A stretch of 64,000 bases of DNA, from NCBI GenBank assembly GCA_002170395.1, contig NHEJ01000007.1, positions 403,441 through 467,440 on the forward strand, given 5' to 3'. The notes beneath the pieces were generated by a model, which saw only the letters and a list, made by a program, of their open reading frames with translations, was not told the origin of the DNA and did not search any database. A program made the translations under genes and the position numbers. Within the stretch, counting starts at the first letter, position 1. The number at the start of each line of letters is the position of its first letter. This DNA comes from Betaproteobacteria bacterium TMED82. Lineage in GTDB: Bacteria; Pseudomonadota; Gammaproteobacteria; Burkholderiales; Burkholderiaceae_A. Of the stretch, positions 38,806 to 56,841 are shown piece after piece.

Positions 38806-39678
38806 ATGAAAAGAATTAGAGAATATACGATATTTATAACACTTTGCTTTTTTTTAGTCTCTTGCTCTGGAGATAAGCAACAAAAAGATATTCTCAAAGT
38901 GACCGCAATACCAGATGAGGACGCAACGGAACTGATAAGAAAGGCTAAACCACTTATAGAATACCTAGAGAATAGCGTTAATATGCAAGTTGAATTTATA
39001 CCTGTTAGCGACTATTCTGCTGCTGTAGAGGCAATTGTGAGTCGAAAAGTTGACTTGGCTTGGTTTGGAGGATTGACTTTTTTGCAGGCTTACAGCCGGT
39101 CAAATGGAAAAGTCGAGCCACTTATTCAGAGAGTTGAGGATCAGTCATTCAGATCGGTTTTCATTACTAGTGATGCAAATATAAAAGAACTAAGTGATTT
39201 AAAAGGTAAGGAGGTTATGTTCGGTTCGCAGAGTTCAACTAGCGGACACCTCATGCCTAGAACGTTTTTGATGCAAGAGGGAATTATTCCCGAACAAGAT
39301 TTCAAGAGAATAGCCTACAGTGGAGCGCATGATGCAACTATTGCTGCTGTTGGATCTGGGAAAGTACAGGCTGGGGCCATGAATATTAAGACATGGAGAA
39401 GATTTGTAAAGGAAAAAAGAGTACCTGAGGGCACTAAAGTTTTCTACACTACTCCAACTTATTACAATTACAATTGGACTATTCATAAGGAAGTCCCCGA
39501 AGAATTGAGGAATAAAATTAAAGAATCATTTCTCAAAATAAGTTCGGACCAGGAGCTCGGAAAAAAAATATTAGAGGCTCAGGATGCATCGGGATTTTTG
39601 GAGACCGAAAAGAAAAATTATGATGGACTTAAAGCTGCCGCCGAGAATGTTGGTCTTATCAAAAGTTCTTTAAACTAA
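38806..39678 (+). CDS. PhnD-like ABC substrate-binding lipoprotein, putative selenate/selenite binder
   Basis: This 290-residue binding protein has a lipoprotein signal (lipobox LVSC). The mature part matches the PhnD-related group annotated in databases as putative selenate ABC transporter binding proteins: VTAIPDEDATELIRKAKPL, DLAWFGGLTF, FGSQSSTSGHLMPRTFL, YSGAHDATIAAVGSGKVQAG and TTPTYYNYNWTIH. Database membership is recalled from the family's consensus, not searched. The ATG at 38806 follows GGGA at good spacing; longer starts reach 38782. The importer genes run into egtD and the sen genes, which supports a selenium rather than phosphonate substrate. Confidence 0.8.
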   Translation: MKRIREYTIFITLCFFLVSCSGDKQQKDILKVTAIPDEDATELIRKAKPLIEYLENSVNMQVEFIPVSDYSAAVEAIVSRKVDLAWFGGLTFLQAYSRSNGKVEPLIQRVEDQSFRSVFITSDANIKELSDLKGKEVMFGSQSSTSGHLMPRTFLMQEGIIPEQDFKRIAYSGAHDATIAAVGSGKVQAGAMNIKTWRRFVKEKRVPEGTKVFYTTPTYYNYNWTIHKEVPEELRNKIKESFLKISSDQELGKKILEAQDASGFLETEKKNYDGLKAAAENVGLIKSSLN

Positions 39679-39694
39679 GTTTATTGCAGAAGTT

Positions 39695-40447
39695 TTGATA
39701 GATGTTCAAACAGAGAACCTCAGCTTTGCTTTTTCAGTCGGAGGTAGTCAAAAAAAAAAGGTTCTTAGCGATGTTACAGTGGATATTTCCGCGGGAGAGC
39801 ATATAGCAGTCATAGGGTCCTCGGGAGCCGGAAAAACCACTCTATTGAGAGCATTAATATTTGCAAATAGGCCTTTGAGTGGCTCATTAAAGTTTGGAGG
39901 AGTCAATCCTTGGAAATTATCTGGCAAAGCTAGGCACGGTTTAAGAACTAAGTTATGTTATGTTCCGCAGAGTCCCCCGTTGCCTCCTAGACAACGGGTA
40001 GTTCATTCAGTAATAGCTGGAAAACTACCCTATGTGGGATTAGTCGAAAGTTTAATCTCCCTTATTCACCCTCAGTTCACAAAGTCTGCTTTCGAAGCTT
40101 TGGAAGAATTCAACCTGGCACACAAGTTGTATGAAAGAGTCGATCAATTATCTGGAGGAGAGAGACAGAGAGTATCCTTAGCTCGCGCAGTTATTTCTAA
40201 AGCTGCCTTATGGGCTGTAGATGAACCACTTTCCGCCTTGGATCCTGATTCAGCAATGAGTGCTTTGGACGTATTGCTTAAGCATGCAAAAGCTAGAGGC
40301 ATAACCCTTATCTGCACCTTACATCAAGTGGATATGGCTTTAAGGTTTTTTCCGAGAATTATAGCTATGCGTCAAGGAAAAATTTATTTTGATGGCTCTA
40401 GCTCCTCCATAGATCAATCTTTATTAATGAAAGTTTATGAATCTTGA
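39695..40447 (+). CDS. PhnC-like ABC ATP-binding protein of the putative selenium importer
   Basis: This 250-residue ATPase has Walker A GSSGAGKTT (about residues 37-45), signature QLSGGERQRV and Walker B LWAVDEPLSALDP. It is closest to PhnC by its layout (SPPLPPRQRVVHSVIAGKLP region). The start is TTG at 39695, 16 bases after the binding-protein gene. Its 3' end overlaps the first permease gene by 11 bases. No phosphonate C-P lyase or phosphonatase gene is near, so transport for phosphonate breakdown is unlikely. Confidence 0.85.
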   Translation: MIDVQTENLSFAFSVGGSQKKKVLSDVTVDISAGEHIAVIGSSGAGKTTLLRALIFANRPLSGSLKFGGVNPWKLSGKARHGLRTKLCYVPQSPPLPPRQRVVHSVIAGKLPYVGLVESLISLIHPQFTKSAFEALEEFNLAHKLYERVDQLSGGERQRVSLARAVISKAALWAVDEPLSALDPDSAMSALDVLLKHAKARGITLICTLHQVDMALRFFPRIIAMRQGKIYFDGSSSSIDQSLLMKVYES

Positions 40448-41282
40448 GCTAAGTAATCGTTTAGATAAAAAAAAATATGAGGATCCTCTATGGCATAAAA
40501 GATTCTATATTTTTATAGGTCTGATTATTTTTTTTATTTACTTACTGGGCTCGGTGGAGTTCAATTTAAAGAATTTGTTTGACGCCAGAAGCGTTGAAGT
40601 AACTAAAAAGTTTTTAATCTCTTTTTTTCCACCTGAGATATCGAGTGAGTTTTTAATATTAGTTTTTGATGAAGCCTTGGTCACGATAGCAATTGCAACT
40701 GTCGGATTAATATCTGCATTGTTGATTGGTATTCCGGCAGCGTTATTAATATGTAATTCTCTTTCCTTTTCAAGTGTAGAGGGACAGGCAAGCATCGTAT
40801 CAAAGTCTTTTAGATATGCTGTAAGGCTTATTTTAATTTTCCTTAGAAGTGTTCCTGAGATAGTTTGGGCTTTACTTTTTGTTAGAGTGGTTGGCTTAGG
40901 CCCAACCGCCGCAATTATTGCAATAGCATTAACGTATGGTGGTATGCTAGGAAAAGTGTACGCTGAAATTTTAGAGAGTGGCGGCGGAGAAATATCTGAT
41001 AAATTAGTGTTCAATGGATTAAGTAGAGGGCAGATTCTTTTTTATGTATTGATCCCACAAAATATTTTGGAAATTGTTTCCTACACTGTTTACAGATGGG
41101 AATGTGCAGTTCGCTCAACCGTTATCCTGGGGTTCGTTGGAGCTGGGGGTCTGGGGCAGCAACTTGAAAATTCAATGAAAATGTTTGCTGGAGGAGAAAT
41201 TTGCACACTTCTTATGGCATTCATTATCTTAGTTTGGTTTTCAGATTGGTTAAGTAAAAGTTTGAGAGATCAAATCGTGTGA
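40437..41282 (+). CDS. PhnE-like ABC permease, first copy
   Basis: This 281-residue permease has about six helices. PhnE-type motifs are present: LRSVPEIVWALLFVRVVGLG (about residues 141-160), the coupling-loop segment VFNGLSRGQILFYVLIPQN, and YRWECAVRSTVILGFVGAGG. The C-terminal RSTVILGFVGAGGLGQ is a hallmark of the family. It overlaps the ATPase gene at its start and the second permease gene at its end by four bases, so the genes are translationally coupled. It probably heterodimerises with the next subunit. Confidence 0.88.
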   Translation: MNLELSNRLDKKKYEDPLWHKRFYIFIGLIIFFIYLLGSVEFNLKNLFDARSVEVTKKFLISFFPPEISSEFLILVFDEALVTIAIATVGLISALLIGIPAALLICNSLSFSSVEGQASIVSKSFRYAVRLILIFLRSVPEIVWALLFVRVVGLGPTAAIIAIALTYGGMLGKVYAEILESGGGEISDKLVFNGLSRGQILFYVLIPQNILEIVSYTVYRWECAVRSTVILGFVGAGGLGQQLENSMKMFAGGEICTLLMAFIILVWFSDWLSKSLRDQIV

Positions 41283-42040
41283 AAAATAAAATAATACTTT
41301 TGATAATAATTTCTTTAATTTTGCTTTGCTTTTATAAAGTTGATTTGCACTTAAGTGAGATTTTTACTGTGGAAGCTTTTAATCTTACAAAAAGGTTCCT
41401 TGAGGAGTTTTTCCCGCCAAATATAGAAATGGAATTTTTGATAATTGTACTGAAGGCTTCATTAGAGACATTCTCAATGTCTGTCGTTGGAACTGTCCTC
41501 GCCATTATGATGGGGTTACTACTTGCTTTTATCGGCACTAGTTCGCGAAATGGCAGACCTTTAATTTTGCATAATATTGCTAAATTATTACTAAATATCC
41601 TTAGATCTATTCCAGATTTAGTCTGGGCATCATTACTGATAATTAGTGCTGGCCTGGGTCCTTTTGCTGGAACCCTGGCGTTAGCTTTCCACACTACTGG
41701 TGTTCTCGGTAGGTTATTTTCAGAAGCCTTAGAGAACCTGCCGAGAGATAATAGTGAGGTCCTCTCATATCATGGAGTTGGGTTTATAAAGCGTCTGTTT
41801 TACGTAGAGCTTTTTCAGTTGTTACCACAAATAATAAGTTATTCACTGTACCGTTGGGAAAATAACATCAGGGCCGCTGCAGTTTTAGGAGTAGTTGGGG
41901 CAGGTGGACTGGGTCAACTTTTAAGTTTTAATTTAGGACTTTTTTTTATGGACAAAGCAAGCACAATAATTTTTATGATGATTTTTCTGGTTTGTTTTGT
42001 TGATTTTACAAGTAGTTTAATAAGAAGGGAGCTTTTGTAA
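41279..42040 (+). CDS. PhnE-like ABC permease, second copy
   Basis: This 253-residue permease starts at GTG and is homologous to the preceding subunit: LRSIPDLVWASLLIISAGLG (about residues 102-121), LSYHGVGFIKRLFYVELFQL and YRWENNIRAAAVLGVVGAGG. Tandem PhnE genes are normal for PhnCDE-type importers. Its stop is followed after one base by the GTG start of egtD, so importer and hercynine synthesis are physically one operon. Confidence 0.88.
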   Translation: MKNKIILLIIISLILLCFYKVDLHLSEIFTVEAFNLTKRFLEEFFPPNIEMEFLIIVLKASLETFSMSVVGTVLAIMMGLLLAFIGTSSRNGRPLILHNIAKLLLNILRSIPDLVWASLLIISAGLGPFAGTLALAFHTTGVLGRLFSEALENLPRDNSEVLSYHGVGFIKRLFYVELFQLLPQIISYSLYRWENNIRAAAVLGVVGAGGLGQLLSFNLGLFFMDKASTIIFMMIFLVCFVDFTSSLIRRELL

Positions 42041-42041
42041 A

Positions 42042-42974
42042 GTGAAAAAGTGTGAGGACATGGAGAAAATAAACTATTTAGAGGGATTAAAAAATCCTAA
42101 TCCAACAATTCCAACTAAATTACTATACGATGATTTGGGGGGCGTTTTGTTTGAAGCGATAACTAAACTTCCTGAATATAAGGTTACAAGAGATGAGTAC
42201 GAATTACTTGATAAAGAAAAGGAAATGATTGTCAATGAGTTACCTAGTAACGCATGCATGATCGATTTAGGGGCTGGTAGTTGCCAGAAAGCCGCCTATA
42301 TAATTCCACAACTTAAACCAATTAGATATATACCTGTAGACCTTGCGTCTGATTTCTTTTCTCACTCTGTTAGTAAATTGAAAAATAAGTTTAGAGAGTT
42401 AGAAATCAAAAGTATTGAGGCTGATTTTTCCACTGATTTTAATACGGGAATGGTGAAAGATATACAAGGAGAAAATTTTAAAAGTGAACCCACTGTTTAT
42501 TTTTTTCCTGGTTCCACGATTGGCAACTTTCGCCCTGATATTGGAATCAACTTTCTACGCAACTTAAACGCGGACTTTATCTTAATCGGTGTCGACTTAG
42601 TCAAACCGTTGGATGATTTGATGGGCGCCTATAATGATAGCCTAGGTGTCACATCAGCATTTAACAAAAATATACTTTTGCATTTTAATCGCTTGGCAAA
42701 AACAAATTTTGACATACGGTTTTGGAGGCATGATGTAAGATTTAACGTTAGAGAGTCAAGAATAGAAATGCATTTAGTTGCAACTTCTGATCAAAAAGTA
42801 GCATCTCCCCAAGGCAGTATATTCTTTAAAAAAGGAAAAAGCATACATACAGAAAACTCTTATAAATATACCGTACAAGGATTTACGGAGTTACTTGAGG
42901 AGGCTGGTTTTGACAATTTGAAAAGTTTCGTAACGCCGACAGAGCGATATGCTCTATTTACCGGATCTAAATAA
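42042..42974 (+). CDS. egtD: L-histidine N(alpha)-methyltransferase, EgtD
   Basis: EgtD trimethylates histidine with three SAM to hercynine, the shared precursor of ergothioneine and selenoneine. The 310-residue protein has the family N-terminus with Tyr29 (LLYDDLGGVLFEAITKLPEY), the SAM site IDLGAGSCQKA (74-84) and the histidine-binding Asn162 in FFPGSTIGNF (154-163). The GTG at 42042 has GGGAG ten bases upstream; an ATG at 42060 is too close to its GAGG. It is the last gene of the importer operon, and its 3' end overlaps the convergent senA gene by eight bases. Confidence 0.95.
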   Translation: MKKCEDMEKINYLEGLKNPNPTIPTKLLYDDLGGVLFEAITKLPEYKVTRDEYELLDKEKEMIVNELPSNACMIDLGAGSCQKAAYIIPQLKPIRYIPVDLASDFFSHSVSKLKNKFRELEIKSIEADFSTDFNTGMVKDIQGENFKSEPTVYFFPGSTIGNFRPDIGINFLRNLNADFILIGVDLVKPLDDLMGAYNDSLGVTSAFNKNILLHFNRLAKTNFDIRFWRHDVRFNVRESRIEMHLVATSDQKVASPQGSIFFKKGKSIHTENSYKYTVQGFTELLEEAGFDNLKSFVTPTERYALFTGSK

Positions 42975-44214
42975 TTTCCACCGTTCTAAAGCCAGCGAAA
43001 ATGTCCTGCCTGTGGGGCATGTAAAAATTTCTATAGCGAGAACACTTCAGTGATCTGTATGTTGCAAAACTTGATCCTTTCAAGACCATATGGTCGCCAA
43101 ACCATGGTTCAGAATATTCTTTGTATGGGTGAGCCTTGAACTTCTTATCTTTTTTAAAAATGCTTGAAGTCCACTCCCAGACCGATCCCCATTGAAAAAA
43201 CTGATTTTTAGAGGCCGCCAACCACTGATTTTCAGTGGGAAGTTCCCGACTTTTTGAGTTTACATATGCCTCTGCCTCAAAGTAATTAATGTTAAAAACT
43301 GGCAATTGTTTTCCTATCCTAAGAACTTTACCAAACCATTCAATAGTGATCTCAGCCTCGTTTTCTTTTCCACACTTAACCGCAAGAGCAAGCTTATCTG
43401 ATAACGAGGTATGCTGATATTTATTTAGGCTTTTATAATCTTTTAACCAATTTTTTCCATCTTCCGACCAATTTTTTTCATTTTCATATTCTCCGCTTTT
43501 TATAAAATCCAAAAATTCTGCTATCGAGGTGGGGTGGGAGTCAATCCTAAAGTCTGAGGACGGACCATGTGATTCATTTATTTCATTGTCAAATCTAAAC
43601 CCTGATATCTCTTCATTCTTGAATACATCATGGGCAGAAATTAAAATTTTTCTTCGTTCTCCTGCCGAGGGTTCTTGAAGAAATGATACTGCCACTTCAG
43701 GCAAGAACAGGCCGAGGGTTTGAGCAGTCATCCTCAACGCTTCAATATGCATCATTTCATGAGCAAGACAGAGACGATAGAAATAACAGTCTTCATTTGA
43801 TGAGGGATAATTCCGTTTTATTAAATCTAAAATTTTAACTTTTGTTTGTAAAAGATATTCTTTAACTTCTTGTTTTTTAGGTAGTGTGACTAACCACCTT
43901 TCTTCATGCGGAATGGTAGCCGAATTAAAAAGCTCATCCGCCTGCTTCAGAATCGATTCACCACACAAACAATTTTTCCAAGCCTTAGGTCTACGTTCGT
44001 CGAAGCTAAGATATTTATTTCTCAATAACCATCTTTCCGAGAACCACCCAATATGACTAAATTCCCACAAGGGCAGATTTATCTCTTTTCTTCTCTCCAC
44101 AAAAAGATTATCATCTAAAGCGGACTCAAATCTCTCGAATAGTTTTATTGTGGAATCTCGAACGTCATTAAAGCCAGAGGCCAAATCAATGGAATATAAA
44201 TCTCTGAATTTCAT
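42967..44214 (-). CDS. senA: Selenoneine synthase SenA (EgtB-like non-haem iron enzyme)
   Basis: This enzyme joins a selenosugar to hercynine in the selenoneine pathway. The 415-residue protein has an N-terminal DinB-like domain with iron ligands His54 (EFSHIGWF) and His152 and His156 (HEMMHIEAL). A C-terminal formylglycine-generating-enzyme-like domain has WGSVWEWTSS and the terminal RNFYMPHRQDIFAGFRT. Sequence alone does not exclude an ergothioneine EgtB. SenA is preferred because selD and a SenB-type glycosyltransferase are adjacent and no egtA, egtC or egtE is present. It is convergent with egtD and 21 bases from selD, head to head. Confidence 0.85.
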   Translation of the reverse strand: MKFRDLYSIDLASGFNDVRDSTIKLFERFESALDDNLFVERRKEINLPLWEFSHIGWFSERWLLRNKYLSFDERRPKAWKNCLCGESILKQADELFNSATIPHEERWLVTLPKKQEVKEYLLQTKVKILDLIKRNYPSSNEDCYFYRLCLAHEMMHIEALRMTAQTLGLFLPEVAVSFLQEPSAGERRKILISAHDVFKNEEISGFRFDNEINESHGPSSDFRIDSHPTSIAEFLDFIKSGEYENEKNWSEDGKNWLKDYKSLNKYQHTSLSDKLALAVKCGKENEAEITIEWFGKVLRIGKQLPVFNINYFEAEAYVNSKSRELPTENQWLAASKNQFFQWGSVWEWTSSIFKKDKKFKAHPYKEYSEPWFGDHMVLKGSSFATYRSLKCSRYRNFYMPHRQDIFAGFRTVEII

Positions 44215-44235
44215 ATTATCTTTAGAAGGACCATA
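44215..44235. promoter_or_regulatory. 21-bp divergent gap between senA and selD
   Basis: Only 21 bases separate the two start codons. The plus strand holds AAGGA, a plausible ribosome site for selD. There is not enough room for two promoters, so their -35/-10 elements must lie inside the opposing coding regions. I could not name a convincing pair. Confidence 0.4.
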
Positions 44236-45276
44236 ATGCTAGAACCTAAATTAACAAAACTTACAAGTGGTGGAGGTTGTGGCTGCAAAATATCTCCAGA
44301 AATATTATCAGAAATTCTTGCAAAAACAAGGGGCGTATCTTTACCTCCCGAGTTACTCGTTGGAAATAATACATCAGATGATGCAGCGGTTTATAAACTA
44401 GATGCAGAGCGAGCACTTGTAGCAACCACTGATTTTTTTACTCCCATTGTAGATGACCCAGCGGATTTTGGTGCTATTTCTGCTACAAACGCGCTATCAG
44501 ATGTTTATGCGATGGGGGCAAAGCCAATTTTTGCTCTCGCAATAGCAGGGATACCTGTATCTGTATTAACAACCACTACTATTTCTAAAATTTTTACTGC
44601 AGGGAAAGATATCTGTGAGAGGGCTGGCATTCCGATAGTTGGCGGACATACGATTGATTCCCAAGAACCAATATATGGTTTAGTTTGTATTGGGCTAGTA
44701 GAGACGAGGAATTTAAAAAAGAATTCAACTGCAAAAATAAAAGATAAATTAATTTTAGGAAAACCACTAGGTGTTGGGGTTTATTCCGCTGCGTTAAAAA
44801 AAAATAAATTACGAGAAGCAGAGTATAAAACATTCATAAAATACGCAACTCAACTGAATTGGATAGGTTATAAACTGGGCGCAAAATCTTGTGTAAATGC
44901 TATGACTGACATTACTGGTTTTGGTCTTTTAGGTCATTTGGTGGAAATTGCTTCTGGTTCAAATGTGACTATTCAATTAGAAGCGGAAAAAGTAATATTT
45001 CACCCGCAAGTTATTAGTTTAGCTAAGGAAGGCTATCTCACAGGTGCGTCCACTCGTAATTGGGAATCAATAAGTTCTAAGGTTGAATTTCAGACGCAAT
45101 TAAACCCTACCAAAAAAAGTTTATTGACTGATCCACAGACTAGTGGTGGGTTACTGGTATCTGTTTGTTCGGAAAATTCTAAAGAAATCTTAGAATTATT
45201 TTTATCAAATGGCTATACGGCTTTTGAGATAGGTTCAGTTACTGAAAGAAATCAATGTGAAATTACTATCGTTTGA
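44236..45276 (+). CDS. selD: Selenide, water dikinase SelD (SenC)
   Basis: SelD makes selenophosphate from selenide and ATP. The 346-residue protein has the N-terminal catalytic motif GGGCGCK with Cys15, Cys17 and Lys18, corresponding to E. coli Cys17, Cys19 and Lys20. The ATP-grasp/PurM-like core follows: SDDAAVYKL, TTDFFTPIVDDPADFGAISA, GGHTIDSQEPIYGLV and TDPQTSGGLL near the C-terminus. The catalytic position is Cys, with no in-frame TGA, so it is not itself a selenoprotein. Next to senA and senB its selenophosphate is likely used for selenosugar synthesis. Whether this cell also makes Sec or selenouridine cannot be judged here. Confidence 0.95.
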   Translation: MLEPKLTKLTSGGGCGCKISPEILSEILAKTRGVSLPPELLVGNNTSDDAAVYKLDAERALVATTDFFTPIVDDPADFGAISATNALSDVYAMGAKPIFALAIAGIPVSVLTTTTISKIFTAGKDICERAGIPIVGGHTIDSQEPIYGLVCIGLVETRNLKKNSTAKIKDKLILGKPLGVGVYSAALKKNKLREAEYKTFIKYATQLNWIGYKLGAKSCVNAMTDITGFGLLGHLVEIASGSNVTIQLEAEKVIFHPQVISLAKEGYLTGASTRNWESISSKVEFQTQLNPTKKSLLTDPQTSGGLLVSVCSENSKEILELFLSNGYTAFEIGSVTERNQCEITIV

Positions 45277-45280
45277 GGAG
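45275..45280 (+). promoter_or_regulatory. Ribosome binding site that sets the senB start
   Basis: GAGGAG overlaps the selD stop codon and lies seven bases before a TTG at 45288. This strong site favours 45288 over the longer frame start at 45273 and suggests that senB translation is coupled to selD. Confidence 0.65.
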
Positions 45281-45287
45281 AAATTTT

Positions 45288-46289
45288 TTGATAAAAATAT
45301 TTTCTCCGACGGAAAAAATTGCTCTTACCGGAAATCGGATAACCGCAAAAAGATATTCATATTTACTCAAAAAATGTGGTTTTGACGTAAGTTTGGAGGA
45401 GAAACTCTCCGGTATTGATCTTTTAAGTAGTCAAGATGTGGTGATAACACTGCATGCCTATAAAAGCCGTCTGATCATTAATAAGTGTCATCAACTTAAT
45501 ATTCCTTGCATTTTAGTTTTAACTGGTACCGACCTATATAAAATTATGGTAAGCGGCGATCCAAAACAGAGAAAGGAATGTAATACGGCAATTCAAAAAA
45601 GTAATGCCATAGTAGTTTTGCAATCTAATGCAAAATTTGACTTGTTAAAATTGCTTAAAGTTGATGAGAAAAAAATATCTGTTATTCATCAGTCTGTCGA
45701 TATAAATGAAAGTAGACAAGTTTTTTTTAATAAAAAGTCCAGTTATCGTGTGCTGATGGTTGGGAATGTTAGAGAGGAAAAAAACTATATTTCTGCTATC
45801 GAAGGATTTAAATTAGCACTATCGGACATTAAAAATAGTTCTAAAATACAAATCACCCTCAATCATATCGGGGGTATATTAGACAAGTCATACATGAAAA
45901 GAATGGTTGAGATCAGTACAAATTCATCCGTTCAGTTTCTGGGAGAAAAGTCTACCCATGATGTTCTCTCAGAGATGATCAGTTGTGATTTATTACTTCA
46001 CCCTTCCACATTAGAGGGTGGAGCACTAGTCATTATGGAGGCAATTAATGCCGGCATGCCAATACTAGCGAGTAATATATCTTGTCATAGGGCAATTCTG
46101 GGAAAAAATTATGCTGGGTTATTTCCTGCAAGTGAAGGAAAAAGTATTGCCAAGAAAATACTAATGTTTTTTTCTTTGAAACAGTTTAGATCAGAACTAA
46201 AACAGCAACTACGTTGTAATAAACTCGCCAAATATTCAATGGAATGTGAAAGAGCACAGTTATTTGATTTAATTAGTAAGTTAACGTAA
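45288..46289 (+). CDS. senB: Selenosugar synthase SenB (GT4-like glycosyltransferase)
   Basis: SenB uses selenophosphate and a UDP-sugar to form a selenosugar. The 333-residue protein has a GT-B fold: N-terminal GNRITAKR (15-22), the characteristic LVLTGTDLYK (76-85), a nucleotide-sugar domain from RVLMVGNVREEKN (154-166) and the donor motif HPSTLEGGALVIMEAINAG (238-256) with Glu243 and Glu251. The LTGTDLY segment and overall length match the SenB family. Its start overlaps the end of selD, which ties the two steps together. A C-Se lyase step needed to release selenoneine has no candidate gene nearby. Confidence 0.87.
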   Translation: MIKIFSPTEKIALTGNRITAKRYSYLLKKCGFDVSLEEKLSGIDLLSSQDVVITLHAYKSRLIINKCHQLNIPCILVLTGTDLYKIMVSGDPKQRKECNTAIQKSNAIVVLQSNAKFDLLKLLKVDEKKISVIHQSVDINESRQVFFNKKSSYRVLMVGNVREEKNYISAIEGFKLALSDIKNSSKIQITLNHIGGILDKSYMKRMVEISTNSSVQFLGEKSTHDVLSEMISCDLLLHPSTLEGGALVIMEAINAGMPILASNISCHRAILGKNYAGLFPASEGKSIAKKILMFFSLKQFRSELKQQLRCNKLAKYSMECERAQLFDLISKLT

Positions 46290-49587: not shown

Positions 49588-50559
49588 TTATGCCATTTTA
49601 TAAATAGTAAAGACACTTAATACTATAATAATGATTCCAACTAAGGTCATTAATGCCCTTGGGGGAATATATCGACATAGGTAAGCAGCAAAAGGGGCGG
49701 CAAAAAGACCACCAATTACTAATCCAAAAACACTTACCCAAGGGCTACTTGTTACAAAAATCGTAAAGAATCCAGCAGTGGATAAGGTCAGAAAAAACTC
49801 AGCGAAGTTCACTGAGCCAATTGTAGACCTAGGGTCTTGACCATTTCCGATTAAGTTAGTGGTAACAATAGGGCCCCAACCACCACCACCGGCCGAATCC
49901 ATAAGGCCACCAAACAGAGCTAAAGAAGAAATTTTAGATTGTTTTATAGGTTTGGGCTCGCTGTACTTCTTCAACCCCTTAACTAAAATTAAAAGCCCCA
50001 TTAGCAAAAGATAGAAACACATTATTGGTTTGAATATCGCAGTATCTAATTGAGTAACAAGCAAAACTCCTAATAACGCTCCCAAAATACCTGGAACAAG
50101 AAGGCGTAAAAAAAGGTCTTTTGAAACATTTCCTAAATTAACATGAGAGATACCGGACAAACCAGTTGTAAAAACAGCGGCTATATGAACGCTTGCGCTC
50201 GCAACCGCAGGACTTGCCCCAGAACTAAGGAGGAATGTTGTGGCGGAGATACCATAAGCCATACCTAACGCACCATCGATGACTTGAGCAATGAAGCCAA
50301 TTAAAACAGCATTTAAAAATTGTTCAGTTTTTAAAATATTGATTATTTTCGAAAAAGAATCATCACCATTGACATTTATAAATGAAACAACGATATATAT
50401 AAGCAACGCTAGTAAGATCACGAAAGCTATCCAACTAAACCAAAATAAGTAAGGGTGCTTTTCTCCTTGAAAAACTATCGTTTCTAGTTGCGGAAGGCCA
50501 GCTCTTGAACGTTCCTTCTGTACTTCACTTGTTCTTAGTTCCCTGTCCCTGATTTTCAT
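49588..50559 (-). CDS. TauE/SafE family permease, probable sulfite/sulfate-linked transporter
   Basis: This 323-residue inner-membrane protein has eight or nine helices. A cytoplasmic N-terminal extension of about 30 residues precedes them. Family motifs are GFIAQVIDGALGMAYGISAT (about residues 91-110), AVASASVHIAAVFTTGLSG and GLMDSAGGGGWGPIVTTNLI. In betaproteobacterial sulfate operons this family is common at this position and probably moves sulfite, sulfate or a related anion. It is 17 bases from cysN, so it is very likely co-transcribed. Confidence 0.88.
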   Translation of the reverse strand: MKIRDRELRTSEVQKERSRAGLPQLETIVFQGEKHPYLFWFSWIAFVILLALLIYIVVSFINVNGDDSFSKIINILKTEQFLNAVLIGFIAQVIDGALGMAYGISATTFLLSSGASPAVASASVHIAAVFTTGLSGISHVNLGNVSKDLFLRLLVPGILGALLGVLLVTQLDTAIFKPIMCFYLLLMGLLILVKGLKKYSEPKPIKQSKISSLALFGGLMDSAGGGGWGPIVTTNLIGNGQDPRSTIGSVNFAEFFLTLSTAGFFTIFVTSSPWVSVFGLVIGGLFAAPFAAYLCRYIPPRALMTLVGIIIIVLSVFTIYKMA

Positions 50560-50576
50560 AAATTAGCAACCTTAGC

Positions 50577-51839
50577 TTATTTAATCATTAAAGCGGCTGC
50601 GGTCTGGTTTGTTATTTTATCGATTAAGATAAGAGAGCCAGTAGTTGCAAATTTTTCAAATGAATCAGCCAAAATAGCCTGAGATACTTTTACAGAAGCC
50701 TCGCCGATTTCGTTGATTGTTAAAGTATCAGTGCTTACAGATTTGAGCGTTACTGGATTTATCTTATTTACAATTGAAATTTTTGCTTGGATTTCTTTAG
50801 TGTTATGTTTCAGGATATAACGGCTACTTGAATTGAAAGGCAAAGAGTCCAGCCAAGCAATTTTCGCCAAAAAAGTTTTAGAGCTCACTACTCTGTCATT
50901 GGACTCGATCAACACATCACCTCTAGAAATGTCAAGGTCTTTATTTAACCAAAGAATAACATTTTGTCCCGCGGTAGCTGAGTCAATTTCCTTTCCTAGG
51001 TATACGATCCTATCAATCCTTGAAGAGATTTCAGAGGGAAAAGATTTTACTAATCTGTTTTTACTCAGAACTCCCGATTCCACTCTCCCAGCATATGCTC
51101 TTTGTGAGTTATGTTTTTCTCCATCCCATCTTAAAACATATTGGATTGGCAACCGAAGCTGATCATTAATTCTAATTGACTTACTACTTTTTTCTAGGAG
51201 TTCTAGGAATGAGAAACTTTCGTACCATTTTGTTCGTTTGGAATTGCTTATAATATTATCACCTTGTAACGCGGAAATGGGTATTGCTGAGCACTTGGGA
51301 AAAAAATTTAAGTCGCGAAGTAATTTCTGAAATGAATCAAAAATTTCAGTGAATAGAGCTTCACTAAAATTCACTAAGTCCATTTTGTTAACTGCTAATA
51401 TGACTGTTTTGATTTTTAATAAAGATATGATTAATGTGTGTCTACGAGTTTGTTCTAGTAGAGAACCGTCTTTCACCTTGCTAGCGTCTACTAAGATCAC
51501 TGCGATGTCGGCATTTGAAGCACCAGTAACCATATTTCTTGTGTATTGTTCATGACCAGGGCAGTCTGCAATTATAAATTTATTTGTTGGCGTATTAAAG
51601 TAGCGATATGCTACATCAATAGTAATTCCCTGCTCTCTTTCTGACTCTAATCCATCAGTTAAAAAAGATAAATCAAAAGACTCAAAATTTGCACGATTAT
51701 TTTTTGCGCTTTCTAGATTTTTTATTTGGTCATTCAGTATGAATTTTGTATCAAACAGAAGTCTGCCTATTAAAGTACTCTTGCCGTCATCTACGCTTCC
51801 AGCAGTAATAAACCTAATCGGGGATTTTTTGGCTATCAT
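50577..51839 (-). CDS. cysN: Sulfate adenylyltransferase large subunit, CysN
   Basis: CysN is the GTPase subunit of ATP sulfurylase; with CysD it makes APS from sulfate and ATP. The 420-residue protein has G1 GSVDDGKSTL (about residues 14-23), G3 DCPGHEQYT and G4 NKMD, followed by two EF-Tu-like beta-barrel domains. It lacks a C-terminal CysC (APS kinase) fusion, in keeping with APS being reduced directly by CysH. Its start overlaps the end of cysD by one base. Confidence 0.95.
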   Translation of the reverse strand: MIAKKSPIRFITAGSVDDGKSTLIGRLLFDTKFILNDQIKNLESAKNNRANFESFDLSFLTDGLESEREQGITIDVAYRYFNTPTNKFIIADCPGHEQYTRNMVTGASNADIAVILVDASKVKDGSLLEQTRRHTLIISLLKIKTVILAVNKMDLVNFSEALFTEIFDSFQKLLRDLNFFPKCSAIPISALQGDNIISNSKRTKWYESFSFLELLEKSSKSIRINDQLRLPIQYVLRWDGEKHNSQRAYAGRVESGVLSKNRLVKSFPSEISSRIDRIVYLGKEIDSATAGQNVILWLNKDLDISRGDVLIESNDRVVSSKTFLAKIAWLDSLPFNSSSRYILKHNTKEIQAKISIVNKINPVTLKSVSTDTLTINEIGEASVKVSQAILADSFEKFATTGSLILIDKITNQTAAALMIK

Positions 51840-52756
51840 TAAAAGTATCCCTCTTTTTTTCTCTTCTCCATTGAAGCTTCCTCAGTTTGATCGTCCAAAC
51901 GAGTAGCTCCTCTCTCACTTAAATCAGAGGCGGCTGTTTCGGAAATGATTTCCCGCGGTGAAGTAGCAAGACTCTCAATAGGACAAGTGCAAGTGATATC
52001 ACCCACCGTTCTAAACCTGACCATCTTCTCTATGACCTTTTCATTTTTTTCCGGAGGAGTATAACTTGTAAGTGGAACTAATAAATTCTTCCGGTAAAAA
52101 ACCTTGCGAGGATGAGCAAAGTAGATATTTGGAAGTTTTAGGTTTTCAAACTGTATATATTTCCAGATATCTAATTCAGTCCAATTCGAGATTGGGAAAA
52201 CTCGCATATGTTCGTCTTTCTGATGTCTGGTGTTAAATAGATCCCACAATTCCGGTCGTTGAGACTTTGGATCCCAATGACCAAATTCATTTCTGAATGA
52301 AAAAATCCTCTCTTTTGCTCGCGCTTTTTCTTCATCTCTTCTGGCGCCTCCCAACAAGGCATCAAATTCAAATTCTTCAATAGCTTCAAGTAAGGTTATT
52401 GATTGAGCTGCATTTCGTGATTGCATCTGATGTTTAAGTTTTACAGTGCCTCTTTTAATTGAATCTTCGACTTTTCTAATTATCAGGTTGGCATTAATTT
52501 CTGTTACTTTTTCGTCTCTAAAAGCTAACACCTCCGAAAAATTATGTCCGGTATCTATGTGAAGTAAAGGAAAAGGCAGGGGCATAGGTGCAAACGCTTT
52601 TTGGGCAATTCTTAACATTACAACCGAGTCTTTACCGCCCGAAAACAGTAAAACAGGATTTTTGGAAGTAGCTGCAACTTCTCTCATTATGAATATAGAT
52701 TCATTTTCGAGAAATTCTAAATGTTCTGTAGACTCTACCGTTGCTTTAGTCTTCAT
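51839..52756 (-). CDS. cysD: Sulfate adenylyltransferase small subunit, CysD
   Basis: CysD is the catalytic subunit of ATP sulfurylase. The 305-residue protein has the PP-loop motif LLFSGGKDSVVML (about residues 37-49) and other family segments (LPLLHIDTGHNFSEV, GARRDEEKARAKER, FPISNWTELDIWKYI). The ATG at 52756 is used; a GTG at 52765 would add three residues. It overlaps cysH by 11 bases and is followed by cysN. Confidence 0.95.
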   Translation of the reverse strand: MKTKATVESTEHLEFLENESIFIMREVAATSKNPVLLFSGGKDSVVMLRIAQKAFAPMPLPFPLLHIDTGHNFSEVLAFRDEKVTEINANLIIRKVEDSIKRGTVKLKHQMQSRNAAQSITLLEAIEEFEFDALLGGARRDEEKARAKERIFSFRNEFGHWDPKSQRPELWDLFNTRHQKDEHMRVFPISNWTELDIWKYIQFENLKLPNIYFAHPRKVFYRKNLLVPLTSYTPPEKNEKVIEKMVRFRTVGDITCTCPIESLATSPREIISETAASDLSERGATRLDDQTEEASMEKRKKEGYF

Positions 52757-53426
52757 GTAAACCACACTCTTTATTGATTAAGCTTCGCTCCCACCACCAT
52801 CTACCACTTCGCTCATCTTCTCCAGGTTTAACTGCTCTAGTGCATGGGGCACAACCAATGCTACTGAATCCCTTTTTATGCAGTGGATTAGTCGGAATTC
52901 CATTCTTTAGAATAAATCTCCACAAAAAGTCGCCGCTCCAATTCAGAAGTGGATGATACTTCATAAGATTAAGCTTATTGTCCCATTCCATAAATGTATT
53001 TTTTGATCTTTTCAAACTGTGTTCCGATCTTATGCCTGTGATCCAAGCTGATTTATCTTTCAACGCTCTCCTGACAACTTTTACCTTTCTGATTTCACAA
53101 CATTCAATTCTTTGACTAACACTTTTATAAAAACCATTAATACCGTTTATTTTTACGTAGTTTTCGACGTCGGCGCTATCCGGACAATACACTTTTATTT
53201 TCTTATTGAAGTGAGCCTCAGTATGAGCCAATAAGTTTAAGGTCTCGTTATGAAGTCGACCAGTATCCAGAACAAAGATTTCGATCGGTAATTTATAAAT
53301 GTAAATTAAGTGTGTAATAGCTTGGTCTTCAGCACTAAGACTGGTTGAAAAAACTGGAGAGGGACCATCATTAACAGCTCTTTCAAGAATACTTATGGAA
53401 TCAGGTAGATCGTTAAATTTACTCAT
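52746..53426 (-). CDS. cysH: Adenylyl-sulfate (APS) reductase, CysH
   Basis: CysH reduces activated sulfate to sulfite with thioredoxin or glutaredoxin. The 226-residue protein has the PP-loop-like core (FSTSLSAEDQAIT, about residues 26-38) and the GRWWWE tail. Four cysteines bind a [4Fe-4S] cluster: Cys109-Cys110 (ECCEIRK) and Cys192/Cys195 (CAPC). That cluster marks the APS-reducing type, not the PAPS reductase of E. coli. No cysC gene is present, which supports this. It sits between the chelatase and cysD in the operon. Confidence 0.94.
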   Translation of the reverse strand: MSKFNDLPDSISILERAVNDGPSPVFSTSLSAEDQAITHLIYIYKLPIEIFVLDTGRLHNETLNLLAHTEAHFNKKIKVYCPDSADVENYVKINGINGFYKSVSQRIECCEIRKVKVVRRALKDKSAWITGIRSEHSLKRSKNTFMEWDNKLNLMKYHPLLNWSGDFLWRFILKNGIPTNPLHKKGFSSIGCAPCTRAVKPGEDERSGRWWWERSLINKECGLHED

Positions 53427-53436
53427 TTAGAAATTC

Positions 53437-53817
53437 TTAATTGGATGGGTTTAAAATTACTTCACAAATAGATCGTTGAATATTTTTATGGTTTATCAGA
53501 GGTTTTCCAAAAGTCAAATTCAAACCTTCATGCATAGAGATAATGTTTTTCACTCGTTTTGGCAGGTCATTTTTTAAATGAAAACCATTAGCTAAAAGCA
53601 GAGGTTCCACATGTATGCACTTGTATCCACTATCAATAAGCATTTGAATCACAGTTTCCAAAAGAGGTTTTTGTAGTTCAAAAAACGCCAATTCTACTGG
53701 TCCTTTCAGCCAATTTTTTTTTACGTTGTTTGTAATAGTTTGGAAGGGTGAACTCCATTCGGGATCTTTTGATCCATGAGCAATCAAAATCAAAGCCTGC
53801 CTTTTTTTATGCTGCAT
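53437..53817 (-). CDS. Short CbiX-type chelatase (sirohydrochlorin ferrochelatase)
   Basis: This 126-residue protein is a CbiX-S/SirB-like class II chelatase, recognised by LILIAHGSKDPEW (about residues 9-21; catalytic His in AHGS) and the second conserved His in VEPLLLANGFHLKNDLP. Beside uroporphyrinogen methyltransferase and sulfite reductase it most likely inserts iron into sirohydrochlorin for sirohaem. It overlaps cobA by 11 bases. The short length is normal for the homodimeric single-domain form. Confidence 0.85.
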   Translation of the reverse strand: MQHKKRQALILIAHGSKDPEWSSPFQTITNNVKKNWLKGPVELAFFELQKPLLETVIQMLIDSGYKCIHVEPLLLANGFHLKNDLPKRVKNIISMHEGLNLTFGKPLINHKNIQRSICEVILNPSN

Positions 53818-54610
53818 TGAAAGCCAGTCTTTTCAAGTCAAGGCTAGATTCCAGGTTGCTCATACTATTTGTGCTTACATCCTCAATAACTTTGCCGATT
53901 ATTATACAAACCGGCCCTTTGAATGATTGGGTATCAATTGTCACAAGCTTAGCTAAAGAAGTTATCTGTTTCTTCGACTCTAAGCTGGCACTTTCAACGA
54001 TAGCAACCGGAGTTGTAGGTCTCAACCCATTCTCCAATAAGGTAGAGGAAATATACTTCAGAGTTTTGCCGCCCATGTATATAACGCTGGTTTCAGAGGT
54101 TTTTACTATCTCAGCCCAATTTTCAGTTTTTTCACTATTTTTACTCACAGCTGGTGTAACAAAGCTAACGGAGCGAGAGATTTCCCTCTTAGTGAGGCTC
54201 AGTTCAAGATCTGCAGCAGCAGCAGAGGCAGCAGAGACACCAGGTATTACGGAAAAAGGGATATTCTTTTTTTTTAACTCTGAAATTTCCTCACTCAATC
54301 TCCCAAATATTGTGGGATCTCCTCCCTTAAGCCGCACAATTTGTAAACCCCTCTCTAGATAGCTTACAATCAAACGATTGATTAATTTTTGATTAGTGGA
54401 TAGTTGATTAGATCTCTTCCCAACGTAAAGCCAAGTGGCACTGGGATTAATTTTACGAAATCCTTTTTCATCAATAAGTGCATCATAAAAAACGATCTGT
54501 GCCTTCTTTATAGCTTGAAAGCCAGCAATTGTGAGTAATTCAACATTGCCAGGGCCAGCTCCAACAAAATAAATTTGCTTTTCTCTTGTTAAATAATGTG
54601 ATTTTTTCAT
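53807..54610 (-). CDS. cobA: Uroporphyrinogen-III C-methyltransferase
   Basis: This SAM-dependent enzyme makes precorrin-2 from uroporphyrinogen III. The 267-residue protein shows YFVGAGPGNVELLTI (about residues 14-28), VRLKGGDPTIFGR (about 97-109) and VIPGVSAASAAAADLEL. It lacks the N-terminal dehydrogenase/chelatase domain of E. coli CysG, so it is a stand-alone SUMT. It is encoded between the chelatase and DUF934 genes and serves sirohaem supply for the sulfite reductase. Confidence 0.95.
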   Translation of the reverse strand: MKKSHYLTREKQIYFVGAGPGNVELLTIAGFQAIKKAQIVFYDALIDEKGFRKINPSATWLYVGKRSNQLSTNQKLINRLIVSYLERGLQIVRLKGGDPTIFGRLSEEISELKKKNIPFSVIPGVSAASAAAADLELSLTKREISRSVSFVTPAVSKNSEKTENWAEIVKTSETSVIYMGGKTLKYISSTLLENGLRPTTPVAIVESASLESKKQITSLAKLVTIDTQSFKGPVCIIIGKVIEDVSTNSMSNLESSLDLKRLAFNAA

Positions 54611-54612
54611 TA

Positions 54613-55035
54613 TTAAAAAACCCCTTTACTTCCATCATTTCCACTTTGATAGTGGTGTTTGAACGGATTAATAATTCGTTGCATCTTAATTTCCTCAGTC
54701 ATAGTTGAGTCCAGTGAAGAAATAAACATCGTATCAAAACCACTTCTTTTTAAAAAATAGCTTAATTCTTCGTTAATTTTTCCAACGGCGTGTAATCGTA
54801 AATTGGGATGGTTTTCCCTCAAGCGTGCGGCAATAGAAAAACCTCTTCCGTCAGTAAAATTAGGGAAAATAATAGCAATTGACTCAGAGCCGGAAATTGG
54901 GAAGTCATCAAGAGAGAATCTTTCGACTGACGGATCAATTATAAAACTAAAATTTTCTGAGGCAACTTCCTTCCCTGTTACAAGACAAATACTCTTTCCA
55001 TAAATGTGTGACCGGGTTGAACGAGTATCAGCCAT
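54613..55035 (-). CDS. DUF934 family protein linked to sulfite reductase
   Basis: This 140-residue protein belongs to DUF934, identified by IAIIFPNFTDGRGFSIAARL (about residues 50-69) and LRENHPNLRLHAVGKI. In proteobacteria it nearly always follows a cysI-type gene and is presumed to help sulfite reductase or its electron supply, though the role has not been worked out to my knowledge. It overlaps cysI by one base and lies two bases before cobA. Confidence 0.88.
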   Translation of the reverse strand: MADTRSTRSHIYGKSICLVTGKEVASENFSFIIDPSVERFSLDDFPISGSESIAIIFPNFTDGRGFSIAARLRENHPNLRLHAVGKINEELSYFLKRSGFDTMFISSLDSTMTEEIKMQRIINPFKHHYQSGNDGSKGVF

Positions 55036-56705
55036 TAGATACTATTTTTTCGAGCTAAGTTAGCAGCGTCTGCAAAAGGTTGATTGCCTAACCTTTTTAA
55101 CGTTTCACTCAAATTTTCCCCATCTAATCGCAGACTTATATAGCATTCTAGAATTTCCTCAACAGCATCAACAATTTCGTTTTCAGCAAAAGCCTTTCCA
55201 ATAATTTTTCCAAGTTTTGCACTAGAAGAGTTTCCGGAGTGGCCTCCTAATAAAAGTTGGTAGTAGGCCTTATCATTTTTATCGACCCCAAGAATTCCGA
55301 TATGTCCAATATGATGGTGGCCGCAACTATTTATACAACCAGATATTCTCAAGTCAATCGGACCAAGATTTTCTAGTTGGTCGAGTTGTTTAAATCTAGT
55401 TGCAATATCCTCAGCGATCGGTATTGATCGTGCATTAGCTAAGGAGCAAAAATCCCCTCCGGGACAGCAAACCATGTCAGTGAGCAGTCCTCCAATTGGC
55501 CGAGAGAGATCTTCCTTCTTTAAACTTTGATAAAGATCTTCCAAATGAACTTCAGGAACTGCGGGCATAATAAAATTCTGACTATGAGTGACACGTAGTA
55601 GGGAATCACTGTATTTATCGCATAAGTCAGCAAGAATATCTAATTCCTCTGAAGTAACATCTCCAGGAGCCCGATGTTCCCCCTTGACAGGAAGTAAGAC
55701 GGCCTTTAGGCCATCAATTTTATGTTCAATAACATTATTTTTTTTCCATTGATTAAATTCTTTACTTTCAAAAAGAGTATTAACTTCTTTAGTAATATTC
55801 TTTTGAATACTGGGAGGTCGAAAATAACTAAACTGATCTTTTATCATTTCTAATGTTTGGCATGTCACCTCTGAGGTAAGGCTCTTTAATCTCTGAAACT
55901 CTTCCTCTACTAAGAGTTTAAACTTTTCAATTCCAGCAGCTCTAACAAGAATTTTTATTCTAGCTTTGGTCATATTATCTCTTCTACCTAATTCGTTATA
56001 TACACGCATGACCGCATGCGTGTAAGAGAGCAAATATTTAAAATGAAGTCTCTCTCTTAAAACTGGTCCTAATATGGGTGTTCTTCCTAAACCACCACCT
56101 ACCCGCACTTTAAAAATAGTGTCTGGTTCGCCGTTAACAGCCTCAAAAGCAAGATCGTGTACCTGAATTAAAGCACGATCTTCGGTAGCGCCTGTAAATG
56201 CAACCTTGAATTTTCTAGGAAGAAAAGAAAGCTCAGGGTGAAATGTGCTCCATTGCCGTAAAACCTCTGCGTAAGGTCTAGGATCTAATAATTCATCTTT
56301 AGCTATGCCAGCTAAAGCGTCACTGGTTATATTTCGGAGACAATTACCGCTTGCCTGTATACCATGCAAACCTACTTCCGCGAGTAAAGCTAATGCTTTT
56401 GGAACGTCATTAACCTTTATCCAGTTTAACTGCATATTTTGACGGGTTGTTAAATGGCCATATCCTCTATCAAATTTTTTTGTTATGTGACTTAGCATTC
56501 GAAGTTGCTTTGTATTTAACATTCCATAAGCTATGGCGATTCTTAGCATTGGCGCGTGACGTTGAATATAAAGACCATTTTGAAGCCTGAGGGGTCTAAA
56601 TTCCTCGGCCGAAGTTTTACCCTCACTGTGGCGTTTTAACTGATCCTTAAATTGAATCGCTCGTTCTTTTAGTCGCTCGGCGTCGAATGATGTTTGATGA
56701 TACAT
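55035..56705 (-). CDS. cysI: Sulfite reductase haemoprotein subunit, CysI
   Basis: CysI reduces sulfite to sulfide with sirohaem and a [4Fe-4S] cluster. The 556-residue protein has the N-terminal FRPLRLQNGLYIQRHAPMLR region and two duplicated nitrite/sulfite reductase halves. Cluster cysteines are in CCPGGDFCSLANA (near residue 415) and SGCINSCGHHH (near 460). The ATG at 56705 (MYHQTSFD) fits the family; the longer frame to 56798 would add 31 unrelated residues. There is no CysJ flavoprotein gene, so another electron donor is expected. It is the first gene of the sulfate operon. Confidence 0.93.
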   Translation of the reverse strand: MYHQTSFDAERLKERAIQFKDQLKRHSEGKTSAEEFRPLRLQNGLYIQRHAPMLRIAIAYGMLNTKQLRMLSHITKKFDRGYGHLTTRQNMQLNWIKVNDVPKALALLAEVGLHGIQASGNCLRNITSDALAGIAKDELLDPRPYAEVLRQWSTFHPELSFLPRKFKVAFTGATEDRALIQVHDLAFEAVNGEPDTIFKVRVGGGLGRTPILGPVLRERLHFKYLLSYTHAVMRVYNELGRRDNMTKARIKILVRAAGIEKFKLLVEEEFQRLKSLTSEVTCQTLEMIKDQFSYFRPPSIQKNITKEVNTLFESKEFNQWKKNNVIEHKIDGLKAVLLPVKGEHRAPGDVTSEELDILADLCDKYSDSLLRVTHSQNFIMPAVPEVHLEDLYQSLKKEDLSRPIGGLLTDMVCCPGGDFCSLANARSIPIAEDIATRFKQLDQLENLGPIDLRISGCINSCGHHHIGHIGILGVDKNDKAYYQLLLGGHSGNSSSAKLGKIIGKAFAENEIVDAVEEILECYISLRLDGENLSETLKRLGNQPFADAANLARKNSI

Positions 56706-56841
56706 TATTTTTATTTGGTTTATTAACTTGTATAATGTACGGTAATAAAAGCAAAATGAAAAATACTTTTTTCTAAAAAGCTTAGAAGAAAAAGGCATAA
56801 AGGAAATTAAAAAGTAAACATGGTGAAAGGGATCCCACTGA

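Follow-up and report, generated by a model that had tools for sequence, protein, structure and literature searches.

A probable selenium-uptake and selenoneine-synthesis locus in a marine Burkholderiales genome

How a bacterium might import inorganic selenium and convert it to selenoneine is the question raised by an eight-gene block at positions 38806 to 46289 of the stretch of DNA analyzed here (the window, 64,000 nucleotides with a GC content of 36.8%). The host, a marine MAG of the Burkholderiales with TMED41 and TMED100 as relatives, has a genome assembly of 1.58 Mb in 7 contigs. A sequence-only reading of the window had described a complete selenoneine gene set fused to a dedicated importer, together forming a self-contained module. 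The ORF list, combined with NCBIfam and Pfam naming, confirmed eight intact ORFs in the order and with the overlaps claimed. Taken as a whole, the block is quite likely to be a locus for selenium uptake and selenoneine synthesis.

The first four genes, all on the plus strand, encode the substrate-binding lipoprotein (SBP) of a putative selenium-oxyanion ABC importer (38806 to 39678; TIGR04553, 338 bits against a cut-off of 250), a PhnC-like ATPase (39695 to 40447; best NCBIfam TIGR02315 PhnC, 202 bits, below the cut-off of 266), and two PhnE-like permeases (40437 to 41282 and 41279 to 42040; TIGR01097, 173 and 226 bits, respectively, against a cut-off of 217). They are followed on the same strand by egtD, encoding a histidine N-alpha-methyltransferase predicted to form hercynine (42042 to 42974; TIGR03438, 280 bits against a cut-off of 291 [290.9]; PF10017, 274 bits, above its cut-off). 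The minus-strand gene senA encodes a predicted iron-dependent selenoneine synthase acting on a selenosugar and hercynine (42967 to 44214; NF041186, 344 bits, cut-off 420). The plus-strand genes selD/senC and senB encode a Cys-type selenophosphate synthase (44236 to 45276; NF002098, 462 bits, cut-off 299; GGGCGCK at residues 12 to 18) and a predicted selenosugar synthase, or Se-glycosyltransferase (45273 to 46289; TIGR04348, 177 bits, cut-off 300). Curated cut-offs were passed by SelD, the SBP, and permease 2 and not by SenA, SenB, EgtD, the ATPase, and permease 1; for SenA, SenB, SelD, and EgtD, the top-scoring NCBIfam profile was the named family in each case. The active-site motifs reported earlier were all found, namely, N162 of EgtD, H54, H152, and H156 of SenA, C15 and K18 of SelD, and LTGTDLY and EGG of SenB.

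The four importer genes and egtD are tightly packed. The one-base gap described between the importer and egtD holds for a GTG start at 42042 but not for the alternative ATG start at 42060. The antisense gene senA is convergent with egtD, whose end it overlaps by 8 bases, and divergent from selD, with 21 bases separating the two start codons; selD and senB overlap by 4 bases. Because senA lies on the opposite strand, the gene set is not one plain operon, and the word "fused" had to be dropped. From this layout, any selD promoter must sit inside senA, barring readthrough into selD-senB from the upstream genes. Consensus promoters were found at chance level (22 versus 23.5 expected). The embedding of senA between egtD and selD (42967 to 44236) is also a possible case of a noncontiguous operon.

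The identity of the senA product was examined with profiles, structures, and a tree. Its score under the SenA cut-off and the adjoining egtD, as found with EgtB, could both point to an EgtB (ergothioneine) or OvsA (ovoselenol) enzyme. We consider such an identity very improbable. The full-length copies of other genus members also fall below the cut-off (348, 348, 347, and 385 bits), and the EgtB profile TIGR03440 gave the window protein 175 bits, short of its own cut-off of 360. The difference between the SenA and EgtB profile scores was +169 bits for the window protein and +175 to +238 bits for three SenAs of sen loci, versus -152 to -215 bits for four EgtBs. The nearest structures were those of SenA (8ryz and 8k5i, 230 bits), with OvsA at 108 bits and EgtB at 75 bits. 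In a 28-row tree, the window protein and Variovorax paradoxus SenA fell inside a 15-row set with support of 98/96, and the EgtBs and the OvsA pair formed separate clades, each with support of 100/100. This tree does not establish one clade of all SenA rows. The three-histidine iron site (H54, H152, and H156) was invariant in 18 SenA-type proteins, and the TIGR04373 signature was present in the window protein (82 bits, cut-off 71); scans of the four EgtBs and of an OvsA-like protein did not find it at an E value of ≤1e-20. In addition, senB and selD adjoin senA. An EgtB identity was rejected on the basis of the profile scores and the tree, and the window protein is, by sequence, a divergent SenA-type protein. 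The tree check proposed by the sequence-only reading placed it with SenA, outside the EgtB clade; the accompanying profile check gave NF041186 as the best match, at a score under the family cut-off.

The OvsA-like protein mentioned above is encoded on the minus strand in another genome (L046:7492-8778, genome G028) that also has a sen cluster, and it grouped with OvsA 8ux5 with support of 100/100. Because this enzyme exceeds the SenA cut-off (427 versus 420 bits), NF041186 can mislabel OvsA-like proteins.

The remaining three enzymes were compared with characterized relatives. For SenB, TIGR04348 was the best family by 42 bits, at a score under the cut-off; the five other members of the GTDB family of the host in a 200-genome draw scored 173 to 229 bits. 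Its nearest solved structures (8k5u, 8jjn, and 8fbx) are Se-glycosyltransferases and not an unrelated glycosyltransferase group; for SenB as for SenA, they come from Variovorax or its near relatives. In V. paradoxus SenB, mutation shows that N20, T23, K158, and E231 matter, with K158 being catalytic and the other three sugar binding (PMC10891094). By alignment, these residues correspond to N21, T24, K170, and E248 of the window protein, which are invariant in 15 SenBs, and V. paradoxus H235 corresponds to L252, so that EGGALV replaces EGGAHV. The assignment of SenB as a TIGR04348 Se-glycosyltransferase is supported, and its match to the NCBI selenoneine family stands as a best hit without reaching the curated threshold. 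SelD carries a Cys/Lys active site (C15 and K18) and is nearest to structure 3u0o. EgtD is nearest to mycobacterial EgtD (7scf and 4pim) and conserves the GSTIGN motif with N162. Families, structures, and the SenA tree together bear out the proposed selenoneine gene set, with SenA rather than EgtB alongside SenB, SelD, and EgtD.

Two further observations concern these genes in other genomes. The selD genes of G030, G037, G070, G079, G267, G296, G336, G373, and others contain one in-frame TGA, and the products in these Burkholderiales are probably selenocysteine-containing SelD proteins. At locus L043 (G020:C11:327000-344000), the importer, egtD, senA, and selD occur together with no SenB match in the region; SenB may lie elsewhere, be too divergent, or have been replaced.

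Next, we compared the locus with known sen clusters and with related genomes. Like the V. paradoxus sen cluster (senABC; SenB 8fbx/8jjn, SenA 8k5i), it encodes homologues of SenA, SenB, and SelD/SenC with catalytic residues kept, and as in the loci of Variovorax soli and V. beijingensis, senA lies on the strand opposite to selD and senB. Unlike the V. paradoxus cluster, the block includes egtD and a four-gene importer, selD precedes senB, and SenB and SenA are divergent, with about 30% identity to Burkholderiales homologues outside the genus. Three congeners (G001, G003, and G006) showed the identical eight genes in identical order, and in two others (G004 and G007) the block was interrupted by contig ends; because of this recurrence, the arrangement is not a matter of chance. 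In two other genomes (G016 and G028), the importer is divergent from egtD, and senA, senB, and selD lie beyond egtD. The host genome had no SelA or SelU match; of the 143 genomes that carried SelD in the draw of 200, no other lacked both. Because 7/7 congeners encode SelU and genome completeness is 85.6%, the lack of a SelU match probably reflects a gap in the assembly. On the same grounds, the idea that selenoneine is the only selenium trait of the host was rejected.

The importer was then examined across genomes. TIGR04553 is named "putative selenate ABC transporter substrate-binding protein," and like other systems of this family, the window importer combines an SBP above the curated cut-off with an ATPase and two PhnE-like permeases; unlike the others, its SBP is in lipoprotein form, with a lipobox-like LVSC at residues 17 to 20. 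The known ergothioneine importer is of a different ABC type. We collected 80 loci nearest to the window SBP in a scan of named genomes, which were therefore selected by similarity; within 10 kb, 62 had at least one selenium gene (SenB in 38, SelD in 46, SelA in 8, and SelU in 5). The importer adjoins sen genes in Limnobacter, V. soli, V. beijingensis, Hydrogenophaga, and others. A fairer figure came from an even draw of 200 Burkholderiales genomes, 45 of which carried TIGR04553. Among these carriers, SelD was encoded by 40, SenB by 30, SelA by 22, and SelU by 40; co-occurrence was 40/45 with SelD and 30/45 with SenB (odds ratio, 7.4; P = 3e-8, Fisher test, shared ancestry ignored). In 12 of the 45, including the host, the contig with the importer had selD, senB, or selA at a distance of up to 20 kb; the assemblies are often fragmented. 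In two carriers (G363 and G398), no SelD, SelA, SelU, or SenB was found. A draw across the class gave seven SBPs above the cut-off, of which four, including two from outside the order, were linked to sen genes. Three genomes without SenB (G265, G370, and G375) had the importer adjoining selD or selD-selU.

In a 127-row SBP tree, all TIGR04553 rows formed one clade (99/91), apart from the below-cut-off homologues tested. Inside this clade, the sen label required 23 changes, with at least 13 of them forced by well-supported branches, the selU label required 5, and the selA label required 2. Because one importer type keeps switching its downstream selenium pathway, a selenium cargo is the best explanation, and it looks like a general selenium importer, whatever the downstream use. 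On this basis we infer, as had been proposed, that the neighboring transporter imports inorganic selenium; the further claim that it is dedicated to selenoneine was rejected, because same-clade importers adjoin selA or selU/selD without senB. The neighbors of importers without selenium linkage (TctC receptors, CcmF/CcmI, CsgG, and others) suggested no alternative substrate. Separately, at locus L156 (G257:C1:29000-48500), a below-cut-off PhnD-type SBP, an ATPase, and a permease lie directly beside selD and selU, pointing to a possible second type of selenium-linked importer.

The pocket of the SBP bears on the transported species. Phosphite is bound in Prochlorococcus PhnD1 by Y46, S126, T127, S128, H158, and D205, and the capping residue Y206 sterically disfavors bulkier ligands (PMC5700983). 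Alignment to solved relatives gave Y70, S144, T145, S146, H175, and the cap Y222 as window equivalents, with N221 in place of D205; all of these except N221 were invariant in ten SBPs. The window SBP shares the fold family, the STS motif, and the pocket His, Tyr, and capping Tyr with PhnD1/PtxB (5lq5, 7s6g, and 5o2j), and it differs from them in N221 and in its selenium-gene neighborhood. Because the oxyanion ligands and capping Tyr of a phosphite-binding protein are kept, the pocket would favor a pyramidal anion with three oxygens, for example, selenite, over the selenate of the family name. Pocket geometry alone is not decisive between the two, because Synechococcus PhnD1 was crystallized with phosphate (PMC10284923). 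The same residues, and the fact that cyanobacterial PhnD1 (7s6g and 5lq5) and phosphite-binding PtxB are the closest SBPs of solved structure, would also fit a phosphite or phosphonate transporter of the PtxB/PhnD1 type that merely adjoins selenoneine genes. This explanation appears unlikely given the separate TIGR04553 clade, whose association has switched repeatedly among sen, selA, and selU loci, the presence of selenium genes near only 1 of 20 below-cut-off relatives (that at L156), and a PhnD equivalog score of 161 bits against a cut-off of 261 (TIGR03431). An organic or finished cargo, such as hercynine, ergothioneine, or selenoneine, is suggested by the adjoining egtD and is hardly credible: the SBP has the residues of a buried pocket for a small oxyanion, importers of the same clade lie beside selA or selU/selD without egtD, and the ergothioneine importer (PMC9732360) is another ABC system.

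For an importer of inorganic selenium, the proposed pathway would begin with binding of an oxyanion, most likely selenite, by the lipoprotein SBP and its transfer into the cell by the PhnC/E/E-like ABC importer. Reduction to selenide would take place outside the locus, with glutathione or a nearby sulfite reductase as candidates. SelD would then form selenophosphate, SenB would place selenium onto a UDP-sugar to give a selenosugar, and EgtD would convert histidine to hercynine; SenA would join the selenosugar and hercynine, with elimination and reduction leading to selenoneine. The eight-gene block contains no gene for the reduction of the oxyanion to selenide, and "self-contained" was too strong a term for it. 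A sulfate-assimilation cluster 4 to 10 kb downstream may supply selenide; it encodes CysN, a PAPS-reductase-domain pair resembling CysD and CysH, a siroheme methylase, and a sulfite reductase (50577 to 56798), the last being named among selenite-reducing enzymes in a review (PMC9312934). Together with a TauE-like exporter gene, this cluster occupies positions 49588 to 56798 of the minus strand.

The pathway of which these enzymes are divergent members and the "putative selenate" name of the importer family are already known. The present analysis adds a conserved block of eight genes, an association of the importer clade with three selenium pathways, and an argument from the residues of the pocket. 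Our literature search, with the founding selenoneine paper outside its coverage, returned no paper treating the TIGR04553 importer together with selenoneine and no test of selenium-oxyanion transport for the family. According to reviews of 2022 and 2026, a specific high-affinity prokaryotic selenium transporter is still unidentified (PMC9312934 and PMC13188914). We lean toward the view that TIGR04553 importers are this missing bacterial high-affinity selenium (selenite) uptake system, in which the pocket of a phosphite binder would have been reused for pyramidal SeO3 and recruited repeatedly beside selenoneine, selenocysteine, and selenouridine pathways. Because an importer clade is linked to three selenium pathways and has a defined pocket, bacterial selenium import becomes testable. 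Altogether, the locus would add a marine Burkholderiales lineage, with SenA and SenB of divergent sequence, to the producers of selenoneine, and its importer is a testable candidate for the route of bacterial selenium uptake.
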